Source: Sunxiuqinia elliptica (lineage in GTDB: Bacteria; Bacteroidota; Bacteroidia; Bacteroidales; Prolixibacteraceae). Taken from it: 45,607 nt of DNA. The notes below the pieces were generated by a model that was not told where the DNA came from, searched no databases, and saw only the letters and a list, made by a program, of their open reading frames with translations. Every line of letters starts with the position of its first letter. Position 1 is the stretch's first letter. Position numbers and translations under genes: made by a program. Below are positions 11,582-16,374 of this stretch, piece after piece. Where the stretch lies: NCBI RefSeq assembly GCF_900113005.1, contig NZ_FONW01000007.1, forward strand, positions 179,320 to 224,926, read 5' to 3'.

Positions 11582-12310
11582 ATGAAAAAGAAACTCACCC
11601 ATTTGGGCTATTTGCTGCTTGCCGTTGTTTTAATGCATGCTTGCGCAGCCCCAAAAAGCGTCATTCGTCTTGAACCTGATCGTGAAGATGTAAAGTGGTT
11701 GTTTGGCCAATCTTATGTAACAGATTCTCTTTATGGAGTTGTCTTCGAGGTCGCCTTTGACCGTGCCGTACAAAACCAGTACTGGTTTGATTTTAATATC
11801 ATCAACCACTCCAACATGCCCATACTCATTGATCCGGTTAACTTTACCTATATGGCTTACGATAGCTTAAACAACCGAAAATTGGTTCAACCACTTGCGG
11901 CCATCGATCCAGAAGAACAATTGATGTCCATTGATAAGGAACTCTCGCGGAATGATGCAAGAGCCCAAAATCATTTGGGGATTAGCCTGGTTGCTGCGAG
12001 CGTTGATATTGCTACCGGCGTAGCAACCTTGAGCGATGATAATCCGAACAACGATTACCTTCGAACCAACATGTACGAAGAAGTACAGAATGAAGCCATT
12101 GACAATGAAATAGAAACCCAGAACCTGAATTCCATGCGTGAAGAGTGGTCACAAGGAACCATTCGAAAGACAACGCTAGGAAGCAATTATTCCATGCAAG
12201 GAAAAGTTTTCTTTAAGTCCTATCCCACCGCCGACTATATCAAGCTTTTCATTCCCGTAGATGATAGTCGTCTGGAGATTATTTTTAATCAAAGACATCA
12301 CCGACCTTAA
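11582..12310 (+). CDS. predicted lipoprotein of unknown function
   Basis: The 242-residue product has a lipoprotein signal (MKKKLTHLGYLLLAVVLMHA followed by Cys21, lipobox LMHAC), so the mature protein should be anchored in a membrane by a lipidated cysteine. The rest has no motif that I recognise. It contains a beta-rich N-terminal part with NIINHSNMPILIDPVNF, where a structural-domain strand pattern is visible, and an acidic Asn/Glu-rich middle. It has its own promoter-like box and terminator, so it appears to be a single-gene unit. Confidence 0.78.
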   Translation: MKKKLTHLGYLLLAVVLMHACAAPKSVIRLEPDREDVKWLFGQSYVTDSLYGVVFEVAFDRAVQNQYWFDFNIINHSNMPILIDPVNFTYMAYDSLNNRKLVQPLAAIDPEEQLMSIDKELSRNDARAQNHLGISLVAASVDIATGVATLSDDNPNNDYLRTNMYEEVQNEAIDNEIETQNLNSMREEWSQGTIRKTTLGSNYSMQGKVFFKSYPTADYIKLFIPVDDSRLEIIFNQRHHRP

Positions 12311-12373: not shown

Positions 12374-12479
12374 AATCACCTCTCTCTTCTCATTCGTCAA
12401 CCTCCAAACGATGCAGCTACCGCTGTTTTCCCTGTACTTTAAATATTCCACTCGTTGTTTAAACTTTTTCTAAATAACT

Positions 12480-12509
12480 TTTGTTTTTTAGAAAAAATAT
12501 ATAGGTTTG
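12480..12509 (+). promoter_or_regulatory. promoter of the methionine leader/operon
   Basis: TTTG at 12480-12483 and TAGGTTTG at 12502-12509 are separated by 18 bases and match the Bacteroidota -33/-7 pattern (TTTG and TAnnTTTG). Transcription should begin near 12516, 15 bases before the leader peptide ATG. This spacing is the best full promoter match in the window. Confidence 0.6.
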
Positions 12510-12530
12510 CAACATCATAAAAGGCACCAG

Positions 12531-12626
12531 ATGGACAATTATTTCACATACCAGCAACTTTCTTTCACTCATTCCACGAGTAATGCTGTCATGTCTATGC
12601 CATCCATGTCTATGTGTATGCGATAG
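12531..12626 (+). CDS. methionine-rich leader peptide (31 codons)
   Basis: The frame ATG(12531)...TAG(12624-12626) encodes 31 residues. The last 11 are MSMPSMSMCMR: five Met and one Cys codon within the final 11 codons. The Met codons arise from a tandem near-repeat, ATGTCTATG at 12591 and again at 12606. The peptide starts just after a good promoter and ends on the edge of two alternative hairpins, 99 bases before the first gene of a methionine operon. By analogy with his, leu and thr leader peptides, ribosome stalling at Met codons when Met-tRNA is short would control read-through. It is too short for ordinary ORF calling. The role is inference; the codon run is seen directly. Confidence 0.75.
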   Translation: MDNYFTYQQLSFTHSTSNAVMSMPSMSMCMR

Positions 12627-12691
12627 CCTTCATTCAGTATTTTTTATCACATACGGTTTGAAGGCTCACCATTAAGATTTCCCTTTTTTTT
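12616..12691 (+). promoter_or_regulatory. attenuator-like alternative hairpins before the methionine operon
   Basis: Helix A pairs 12616-12626 with 12644-12654 (10 pairs, one mismatch, one G-T pair); its 5' arm contains the last Met codon of the leader peptide and the stop codon. Helix B pairs AGCCTTCA (12625-12632) with TGAAGGCT (12659-12666), 8 perfect pairs. A and B overlap at 12625-12626 and cross each other, so only one can form at a time. A run of eight T lies at 12684-12691. No GC-rich stem directly abuts that T run, so the terminating form is not obvious. Control of translation or Rho access instead of intrinsic termination is possible. Confidence 0.55.
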
Positions 12692-12725
12692 CGCTATCAT
12701 TTTCGTTTAATCAAATTTGCAATTT

Positions 12726-14072
12726 ATGTCTGTTCATGTCATTAGGCTTGGAGGAAATAATATCAGTAAGCCATCAATCATCGAATCATTTTTGTCGATT
12801 CTAAATCAAAGTGAAGATCAACATATTCTGGTTATTTCAGCATCGGAAACCATTCAACAAGTTCTGGTTCAAGGAGTCGATCTGTTATGTACTAAAATAA
12901 AAACACATACCGATTTGCTGAATGAATTGAAGGAAGAAGCTCATCAGGTTGCTCAATTGAATCAGCTAACACAATTGGCCTCCTTCGAAGCTGCATTAAG
13001 CCCGCTTGACCGTTTACTTAGAGGAATTCAATATACCGGAGATTACTCCTTAGCTCTAAGCGACCAAGTCCAGAGCTATGCCGAAATTTTAACGACTGCC
13101 TTACTCCAGGATATTTTAACTCAGCATCAGCAAGCAGCAGAGCTTTTGTTACCTGAAAAGCTGGGGCTGATTGTTAGCTCCGACTATGGGAATGCCAGTG
13201 TGCTTCGTGAGCCATCAACCGCAAACATCAAATCCTCTCAGTGGGGCAAAGCAACGCTAATTCCGGGCTCCTATGGAAAAACCAAGGATGGGAAAATTGC
13301 CCGCTTGGGAAAACGAGCAGCAGACTATACGGCAGCGGCACTAGCCTCAATTTTAGAGGTCGACCAACTTCAGCTTTGGGGAATCAGCAAAGCATTTAAA
13401 ACAGCCGATAGCGAAATCCTCCCCCAAGCTTCCTACATCGAAAACCTAACTTACGCTGAAGCTTCCGAACTCGCCTACTTCCACCACTCCTCCATCCATC
13501 CCCGCATTGTTGAGCCACTTACCGAGCAACACATTCCAATTAAGGTTTACGAATTACATCAAGCTGAAAAGCAACTGCGCACGACGATCAACTCCGCTAA
13601 TGTTGAGAAAAGCCAACAGATAAAGAGTGTTGCTCACAGCGACAACATTGCCATTTTGAAATTAAATGGGCCAGGCGTTGGGTTCAAACCCGGTATTTTA
13701 TCCATTCTGACGACCGCTTTTGCGAAACACCAAATCAATATTCGCTCAGTTATTACAGCTCAAACCAGCATCAACATCATTTTTAATAAGCATGATATTG
13801 CCAAAGCGCGCCAAATCAGCCAACAAATAGAGCTTCCCTCTGTTAATCAAGTGGAGATTGTTTCTGATATCTCCCTCATTGCCATTGTTGGTCACGGCAT
13901 GCAACAAAACCACGGGATATCGGCCCAACTTTTTTCAGCCGTTGCCAAGCACAAAATCAATGTGCTAATCAGTGGTTCCGGAGCATCTGACCTGGTTAGC
14001 TACCTGGTGGTAAAGGAAGAAGATAAATGCAAAGCGATTCAAGAAATTCATAAGATATTTTTTCATCATTAA
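12726..14072 (+). CDS. degenerate aspartate kinase homologue with ACT domains
   Basis: This 448-residue protein has an aspartokinase-type amino-acid-kinase domain (about 1-290) and two C-terminal ACT domains (about 310-448). ATG 12726 is preferred over TTG 12717. Several residues essential in active aspartokinases are changed. The opening KFGGTS is RLGGNN here (catalytic Lys to Arg), the GRGGSDY-type loop is GKRAADY, and the WTDVDG-type loop is WGISKA. Asp in ADY and the IHPRIVEPL segment remain. Catalysis is therefore doubtful; an amino-acid-sensing or partner role is plausible. It is first in the methionine operon, 18 bases before metY. The product could still be a weak kinase. Confidence 0.8.
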   Translation: MSVHVIRLGGNNISKPSIIESFLSILNQSEDQHILVISASETIQQVLVQGVDLLCTKIKTHTDLLNELKEEAHQVAQLNQLTQLASFEAALSPLDRLLRGIQYTGDYSLALSDQVQSYAEILTTALLQDILTQHQQAAELLLPEKLGLIVSSDYGNASVLREPSTANIKSSQWGKATLIPGSYGKTKDGKIARLGKRAADYTAAALASILEVDQLQLWGISKAFKTADSEILPQASYIENLTYAEASELAYFHHSSIHPRIVEPLTEQHIPIKVYELHQAEKQLRTTINSANVEKSQQIKSVAHSDNIAILKLNGPGVGFKPGILSILTTAFAKHQINIRSVITAQTSINIIFNKHDIAKARQISQQIELPSVNQVEIVSDISLIAIVGHGMQQNHGISAQLFSAVAKHKINVLISGSGASDLVSYLVVKEEDKCKAIQEIHKIFFHH

Positions 14073-15395
<1,323 letters not shown>

Positions 15396-15456: not shown

Positions 15457-16374
15457 ATGCCATTAAATATACCCGATAAACTACCTGCCATTAAATTGTT
15501 ACAAGAGGAAAACATCTTTGTAATTGATACGACCAAGGCTTCCCATCAGGATATACGTCCATTGCGAATTGTTATCCTCAACTTAATGCCTTTGAAAGTT
15601 TCAACAGAGACCGATTTACTCCGACTCTTGTCCAACACACCTTTGCAGGTTGAAATTGATTTTTTGAAAATCAAAGGTCATAAGCACAAAAATACTTCAG
15701 CAGAACACATGCGAACCTTTTACAATAATTTTGAAAAAATCAAGCATAACAAATACGATGGCATGATCATTACTGGAGCCCCCGTTGAACAGCTACCTTT
15801 TGAAGAAGTCACCTATTGGGATGAAATGAAGGAAATCATGGACTGGTCAGCACAAAACGTAACCTCTTCCCTTTTTATTTGTTGGGGAGCGCAGGCCAGC
15901 TTATACCACTTCTATGGCATTCCAAAATATGATTTAGACAAAAAAATGTTTGGCGTTTTCCAGCAACAAATATCGGATAATAAGCTGCCAATTTTCCGTG
16001 GATTTGACGATGAATTCTACGTTCCACATTCACGACATACCGAAATTCGTGCAGAAGATATTAAGCGCATTCCTGACCTTGAGATAATTTCGTCTTCACC
16101 CGATTCTGGAGTCAACATGGTGATGGCCAAAAATGGCCGTCAATTCTTTTTAACAGGTCATTCGGAATATTCACGAGGTACACTCGCCAATGAGTATTAT
16201 CGTGATGTCAAAAAGAAGCTCCCCATTGAGTTGCCTAAAAATTATTTTGCCAATGACGATGACACGCAAAAACCAATCATGAGATGGCGATCGGCTGCTA
16301 ATTTACTTTTCACCAATTGGCTTAACTATTACGTTTATCAGGAAACACCTTATAATTTGGATGATATTCGCTAA
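15457..16374 (+). CDS. metA: homoserine O-acetyltransferase (MetA family)
   Basis: MetA activates homoserine by acylation, the first committed step of methionine synthesis. The 305-residue protein has the GATase-like fold with nucleophile Cys142 (FICWGAQAS), catalytic His in the TGHSEYS segment and the following Glu. Residue 111 is Glu (TGAPVEQL). In this family Glu111 selects acetyl-CoA and Gly111 selects succinyl-CoA. The enzyme is therefore predicted to make O-acetylhomoserine, exactly the substrate of the neighbouring MetY, although MetA proteins are often labelled succinyltransferases. It is last in the operon. Confidence 0.95.
   Translation: MPLNIPDKLPAIKLLQEENIFVIDTTKASHQDIRPLRIVILNLMPLKVSTETDLLRLLSNTPLQVEIDFLKIKGHKHKNTSAEHMRTFYNNFEKIKHNKYDGMIITGAPVEQLPFEEVTYWDEMKEIMDWSAQNVTSSLFICWGAQASLYHFYGIPKYDLDKKMFGVFQQQISDNKLPIFRGFDDEFYVPHSRHTEIRAEDIKRIPDLEIISSSPDSGVNMVMAKNGRQFFLTGHSEYSRGTLANEYYRDVKKKLPIELPKNYFANDDDTQKPIMRWRSAANLLFTNWLNYYVYQETPYNLDDIR

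Follow-up and report, generated by a model that had tools for sequence, protein, structure and literature searches.

A 45,607-nucleotide stretch of the Sunxiuqinia elliptica genome (5.1 Mb), hereafter the window, contains an operon for an aspartate kinase (AK), MetY, and MetA that is preceded by a short open reading frame (ORF) ending in a block of methionine codons and by a hairpin that begins within the ORF's stop codon. We think it likely, from sequence comparison, that this Met-codon leader controls the AK-metY-metA operon by ribosome-mediated attenuation. The sequences support the leader, its frame, its Met codons, the hairpin, their conservation, and, in relatives, a layout in which an S-adenosylmethionine (SAM) riboswitch of the SAM-I class precedes such leaders. 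We also lean slightly toward a broader reading, in which SAM-I and a product-codon leader form one two-input device across Bacteroidales that would turn genes on only if SAM and the amino acid are both short; the window's operon would then descend from such a device, having retained its codon sensor after loss of the aptamer.

The leader ORF (12531-12626, plus strand, as are all features below) has 31 codons and translates as MDNYFTYQQLSFTHSTSNAVMSMPSMSMCMR. It ends with MSMPSMSMCMR, and our translation agrees with a preliminary description of the window that counted five Met codons among the final 11; these begin at 12591, 12597, 12606, 12612, and 12618 and form a block spanning 12591-12620. 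To collect relatives, we searched for the kinase protein in 140 genomes of the window's family and took the upstream DNA from 92 of them. Together with L002, a named relative from another collection, this gave 93 regions, which include the window's own and a likely double (L002 and L039 have identical leaders). Regions passed if the six outer stem pairs of the hairpin were fully paired, allowing G-U, and at least two of the last 12 codons were Met. With this criterion, 90 of the 93 passed; the failures were L094 and two Thr-type leaders (L102 and L103), while a third Thr-type leader (L118) passed with two Met codons. In all, 89 regions contain a Met-ended leader beside a paired hairpin, three are Thr-rich, and one, L094, is neither. 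After near-duplicates were removed, 69 of the 90 passing regions made up our alignment, A1. As leaders were selected on both outer-stem pairing and Met content, enrichment for these features is partly built in; the inner helix of the hairpin, Met positions -2 and -4 relative to the stop, the frame, and the spacing were not selected.

A start codon 20 to 42 codons upstream was found in 86 of the 90 passing regions (L038, L066, L067, and L118 were dropped), and these 86 leaders with a clear start begin 28-37 codons ahead of the stop position. Conservation of the frame and its Met codons had been set beforehand as a test that could refute the leader, and the leader survived it: Met occupies positions -2 and -4 in 86 of 86 leaders, position -9 in 68, and position -6 in 58, and is found at -1, -3, or -5 in none. 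TAG is at the stop position in 80 of the 86. In a non-redundant set of 43 family leaders, the three frames of the final 14 codons contain 160, 5, and 2 ATG triplets. Met is 7.15-fold more frequent in these 43 leaders than in nucleotide shuffles (172 versus 24.0; the set had been preselected for two or more Met). Where the alignment has gaps in its coding part, they measure 3, 6, or 9 nt. Across 26 pairs, substitutions at codon positions 1, 2, and 3 number 112, 116, and 132, and 206 of 272 changed codons are non-synonymous. By these comparative measures, the leader ORF is real and conserved in the window's family, and conservation of the frame argues that it is translated. The substitutions also indicate that the peptide apart from Met drifts freely, the pattern expected when a leader is read for its codons.

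Alternatively, the stretch rich in ATG could serve as an RNA structure or as a site bound by a protein, with the ORF incidental to it. The conserved outer stem of the hairpin does constrain the end of the ORF, and codon -1 is CGC, CGA, or CAA in 41 of 43 family leaders. However, the concentration of ATG in one frame and the indels in threes argue against this explanation, as do the natural Thr and Cys replacements described below, which use several synonymous codons, and a promoter box that keeps a steady distance from the ATG. We regard it as very improbable.

The hairpin spans 12625-12666. Its outer stem, P1, pairs 12625-12632, which overlaps the TAG stop, with 12659-12666 in a perfect 8-pair helix: the 5′ arm, AGCCTTC(A), starts inside the stop codon, precisely at the place a terminating ribosome would occupy, and pairs with (T)GAAGGC(T). 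The 42-nt hairpin has a predicted folding energy of -13.5 kcal/mol (z -5.61), and none of 200 shuffles folded as well. An inner helix, P2 (12635-12656), pairs CAGTAT (12635-12640) with ATACGG (12651-12656), with one mismatch in the window such that 5 of 6 pairs form. Since the outer arms served for selection, P2 is the fair test of the hairpin. P2 cells were paired in 84.5% of cases compared to 69.6% in shuffles; 49 cells had changed on both sides compared to 13.6; and the covariation score was 0.483 compared to 0.248. Each of these values exceeds all 500 shuffles and all slid versions of the helix. The number of P2 pairs showing change on both sides (4 versus 3.9 in shuffles) was not above chance, and slid versions reach 5-6.

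The preliminary description had suggested looking for compensating changes in both of two helices. For P1 these were found, as the outer arms co-vary to AGCCTTT/AAAGGC in L059, L060, and L063 and to AGTCTTC/GAAGAC in L067; the other helix is not conserved (see below). Since the hairpin is retained in six leaders that lack TAG and in the Thr-type leaders, it is a feature of the RNA itself. Leaders without TAG are L049, L051, L056, L084, L086, and L096, all of which keep the hairpin; three of them, with an 11-codon extension, end at a TGA that overlaps the hairpin 3′ arm. A second copy of the hairpin in the same genome was sought with the pattern AGCCTTCN{16,44}GAAGGC, which matched two places (each counted on both strands), the window and C10:12431-12475 (L125). 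As a reversed control pattern matched 3 and 2 times, such matches are at chance level, and this candidate was rejected.

According to the preliminary description, two mutually exclusive helices follow the leader, with the Met-codon end of the leader as one arm, in the manner of the trp and his attenuators. Of the two, P1 stood, being perfect and conserved. The other, 12616-12626 with 12644-12654, can be drawn by eye in the window with 10 pairs, one of them G-U, and one mismatch, but in 69 relatives its cells are paired at the level of shuffles (47.0% versus 47.9%), and we rejected it as a conserved switch. Positions 12651-12656, which take in part of its 3′ arm, belong to the conserved P2. When we used RNAalifold on three sets of 15, 16, and 14 sequences, the P1/P2 hairpin recurred, whole or in part, and we found neither a helix that uses the P1 3′ arm otherwise nor a conserved competing helix; two other pairings, one long-range in genus g3 and one within the g152 leader, were each predicted in one set. 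The alignments thus do not support two conserved, mutually exclusive helices. In a separate observation, most g159 and g153 leaders (most of L105-L122) contain in their bodies CAGCCWTG (Gln-Pro-Cys), which is close to the 5′ arm AGCCTTC and could be a competing arm.

Nor did we detect an intrinsic terminator. There were no terminator-like sites in 12400-12800, as the preliminary description had already remarked for the T8 run at 12684-12691, and this run is not kept in five sequences from the same genus (L034-L037 and L043), where no T run after the hairpin exceeds six. On these two results we rejected an intrinsic terminator at T8. Classical attenuation as in trp, his, and thr, with P1 as the antiterminator and an unrecognized terminator after it, is therefore improbable, all the more as the RNAalifold predictions offer no alternative use of the P1 3′ arm. 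Its appeal is that the Met codons and P1 are arranged much like segments 1 and 2:3 of the trp leader, and that a few SAM-I sites in other families (L009/L193 and L194) show, by eye, a hairpin followed by a T run. Some Bacteroidales thus seem to combine SAM-I with an intrinsic terminator. With the competing helix unconserved and no intrinsic terminator found, the trp/his-type switch that had been proposed for the window is not supported.

In the spacer between the hairpin and the first gene (12667-12725), no intrinsic terminator was found. Spacers in the family are G-poor, with mean C of 0.167 and mean G of 0.085 in 43 leaders; for comparison, 22 flanks taken from the window give 0.155 and 0.152. 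This composition hints, weakly, at Rho.

We infer that ribosomes stall, which condition turns the operon on or off, that SAM controls initiation at the leader, and how expression ends. When charged Met-tRNA is short, a ribosome would stall on the leader's terminal Met codons, P1/P2 would fold ahead of it, and the operon would be expressed. When Met is plentiful, the ribosome would reach the stop, cover the hairpin 5′ arm, and leave, and expression would stop. The most likely agent is Rho, which would act on a spacer poor in G and free of ribosomes; failing that, translation of the first gene would be blocked.

A rival explanation is translational attenuation, in which the stalled ribosome or P1 makes the first gene's start more or less accessible and transcription does not stop early. 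In genus g3, six pairs could form between TCGACA, just 5′ of the leader ATG, and TGTCGA where AK begins (with one-sided changes only), and in six SAM-I sites the main gene begins 12-20 nt past the aptamer, a layout suited to control of initiation. However, the g3 pairing was predicted in only one of the three sets, and in the window P1 ends 59 nt upstream of the AK start, leaving the start uncovered. We consider translational attenuation possible, if less than probable.

If ribosome-mediated attenuation by codon sensing is correct, the sensor codons should be exchangeable within a constant layout, and natural versions match this prediction. In three genomes of genus g158, the leaders before AK-metY-metA are MITNNNTIRTNTSML, MITIYYITRTNTSML, or MITMTTITRTSISML, and the AGCCTTC/GAAGGC hairpin is kept. 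Synonymous Thr codons, ACG, ACA, ACC, and ACT, are used. MITMTTITRTSISML resembles the thrL peptide. In these regions (L102, L103, and L118; L181-L183), SAM-I is followed by the Thr/Ile-codon leader, the same hairpin, and AK-metY-metA. On these sequences, g158 is a natural change of amino-acid specificity. Outside the family, a SAM-linked leader before a metY-like gene (L229, G164) ends with SISSCCCFCCC, with both TGT and TGC as Cys codons. The Thr version comes from three genomes and the Cys version from one.

To extend these observations, we built a covariance model, R1, from the family leaders. R1 matches 112 of the 140 family genomes, including 91 of the 103 of good quality; weak matches in G317 and G321 and at a second place in G270 look like chance. 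Across the order, 15 of 393 genomes matched, five in the window's family and 10 in other families. We read eight of the 10 outside matches, leaving out G058 (a partial match) and G440. Six (G097, G147, G349, G360, G419, and G493) sit behind SAM-I and before met genes that resemble metY, metX, or AK. G347 has a match before a metH-like gene without SAM-I, and a match in G431, with no met gene after it, looks like chance. Since six of the eight lay behind SAM-I, we read all 62 SAM-I sites found in 198 Bacteroidales genomes (55 genomes with a site).

A SAM-linked ORF was taken to start at whichever ATG comes first between -2 and +22 nt, counted from the end of the aptamer. At 43 of the 62 sites this ATG opens a short ORF of 8-89 codons; 10 sites have no such ATG, three have ORFs of fewer than 8 codons, and six run straight into a long gene whose start lies at +12 to +20, near the leader spacing. 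The ATG lies at +9 to +15 in 46 of the 52 sites that have one. L253, where a Met leader begins at +39, was scored as a miss. Among the 43 short ORFs, the last ten codons include at least one Met in 37 and at least two in 30. Met makes up 77 of 425 codons in the ends, whereas the bodies have eight in 836. The other frames hold 3 and 5 ATG, and base composition predicts 6.9. As a control, we examined 90 SAM-I sites in 87 genomes among those listed from other orders of the phylum, taking the 30 best by score, mostly from one family, and 60 picked for genus spread. These contain 20 short ORFs with three Met in 198 codons, and none of the 20 has two or more, indicating that the tandem is, as far as sampled, a Bacteroidales feature.

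Within the window's family, we scanned 40 of the 93 regions for SAM-I (L066 is only 328 nt long). Seven were positive (L102, L103, L104, L106, L108, L113, and L118), all from two genera, g167 and g158. SAM-I precedes the leader in each of the four g167 regions and, of the four g158 genomes, in the three whose regions were read; the other 33 regions scanned have none. In L104, 11 nt separate the aptamer end from the leader ATG. For the window itself, a SAM riboswitch hidden before the leader was rejected, as RF00162 gave no match at the gathering score and none appeared in the Rfam scans. The window's operon has the Met arm only, while in many other Bacteroidales a leader of this kind starts about 12 nt behind SAM-I. 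In the two-input device, the aptamer would gate translation of the leader in response to SAM, and Met codons, or sometimes Thr or Cys codons, would gate what follows in response to aminoacyl-tRNA. At the tandem loci, translation of the leader would thus depend on SAM, and stalling within it on Met. In the simplest logic, a stalled ribosome means on, and either high SAM, which leaves the leader untranslated, or high Met, which lets it be finished, means off.

The SAM-linked leaders also bear on whether the nascent peptide, rather than its codons, is sensed. In the family, 75 of 117 successive Met spacings are M-x-M. In the SAM-linked leaders (L192-L253), M-x-M occurs 24 times versus 7.6 in shuffles, adjacent Met twice versus 8.9, and Arg follows Met directly in 27 of 74 cases; Arg makes up 54 of 425 codons in the last ten but 34 of 836 in the bodies. 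An arrest peptide, in which a nascent M-x-M-x-M-R stalls the ribosome on Met or SAM rather than at hungry Met codons, would account for the excess of M-x-M, the frequent Arg after Met, and the Arg-rich ends. Against it, Met is the sole fixed residue in the family, Thr- and Cys-codon versions occur, and the substitution pattern indicates little constraint on the protein. We consider an arrest peptide unlikely as the whole explanation; as the M-x-M excess and frequent Arg after Met go beyond hungry codons, the nascent chain may nonetheless contribute.

Several observations weigh against attenuation by codon sensing as we propose it. Hungry codons alone do not explain the M-x-M spacing. In the six of 86 leaders without TAG, the frame extends 5-11 codons into the hairpin. 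In SAM-linked leaders from other families, a hairpin at the stop is clear in only part of the set; mean folding z-scores, which are descriptive (30 leaders), show somewhat stronger folding around the stop than elsewhere, with -1.00 at the stop itself, -1.05 and -1.04 when shifted 15 nt to either side, and -0.28 to -0.75 at six other offsets. Neither a terminator nor a conserved alternative helix was found that could form the off-state structure. Finally, the low G content of the spacer also fits an unstructured start region, and the control for it is 22 flanks from one window.

As the preliminary description had proposed, a promoter lies ahead of the leader: by eye, TTTG (12480-12483), an 18-nt spacer, and TAGGTTTG (12502-12509) form what we take to be a Bacteroidota-type promoter (12480-12509). 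In 82 of the 86 family leaders, a TANNTTTG box occurs within 60 nt upstream, 20-38 nt before the ATG (a raw count, with no chance level attached). The downstream operon named in that description is borne out by protein models and domains. The first gene (12726-14072) encodes an AK with AA_kinase and ACT domains over cut-off and no NCBIfam model over cut-off; metY (14091-15395), for O-acetylhomoserine sulfhydrylase, matches TIGR01326; and metA (15457-16374), of the homoserine O-acetyltransferase type, matches NF047918, the last two also over cut-off. In G279, G284, G286, and G292, the leader directly precedes metY-metA with no AK ORF between (genes named by eye). A scan of named genomes gave two loci, of which the nearer is in Mangrovibacterium lignilyticum; there the kinase is 57% identical to the window's, and the matching place contains a leader ending MPSMSMCMR before the stop, together with the window's hairpin. 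Upstream of the promoter, 11582-12310 encodes a 242-amino-acid protein with, by eye, a lipoprotein-like start and no Pfam or NCBIfam match; in L002, a C terminus resembling this protein precedes the leader (by eye).

Elsewhere in the same genome, away from the window's operon, is a single SAM-I site (G000:C10:471881-471986, L222). It is followed by a short ORF, MKRVKIQANSLFLLSFMHFSNSCMR, that ends with CMR before its stop, and then by a gene resembling what we take to be the DUF39 homocysteine family. In Rfam 15, no family, including Bacteroid-trp (RF01692), scored above its gathering score near the window's leader; a further scan gave only four weak matches, with E values as high as 5, each of them on the minus strand and well short of its cut-off.

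If our proposal is correct, many Bacteroidales possess a methionine control circuit that can be tested directly, and the leaders would offer a reason why many Bacteroidales SAM-I aptamers sit at least 100 nt from the gene. Nature would also supply the same layout with Met, Thr, or Cys codons, usable for swapping. Leader-peptide attenuation and SAM-I are both already known. In the open-licence PMC literature (subscription papers being outside the scope), we found neither a methionine leader peptide of this form, in line with the preliminary description's remark that none had been well described before a methionine operon in Bacteroidota, nor a riboswitch ahead of a product-codon leader.

Leader-peptide attenuation is a textbook mechanism. 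As in the trpL, hisL, thrL, leuL, and pheL attenuators, a short ORF with codons for the end product precedes a biosynthetic operon, and a hairpin lies beside its stop. Here, in contrast, the amino acid is Met, the Met codons alternate with others, and we found no intrinsic terminator or conserved competing helix. Bacteroid-trp RNA is linked to Trp codons and does not match the window's element. It was described as a putative cis-regulatory RNA of Bacteroidota (RF01692; Weinberg 2010; PMC2864571). In Bacteroides thetaiotaomicron, small ORFs in long 5′ UTRs have been likened to attenuation leaders, in a passage that names no methionine case and gives no test (PMC7366714). In M. tuberculosis B12 riboswitches, a riboswitch and a translated upstream ORF (uORF) jointly control a gene; translating the uORF is reported to suppress MetE, whereas PPE2 depends on it, and the abstract mentions no product-codon sensing (PMC11260477). 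Our proposed last step has its own parallels. In tnaC and mgtL, a ribosome stalled in the uORF sets early termination without an intrinsic terminator, through a Rho-dependent read-out. The E. coli topAI uORF is reported to be of this type (PMC12121999), whereas for the window's operon we only infer a role for Rho. SAM-I (RF00162), absent before the window's leader, is likewise tied to methionine genes and in relatives lies about 12 nt before such leaders.

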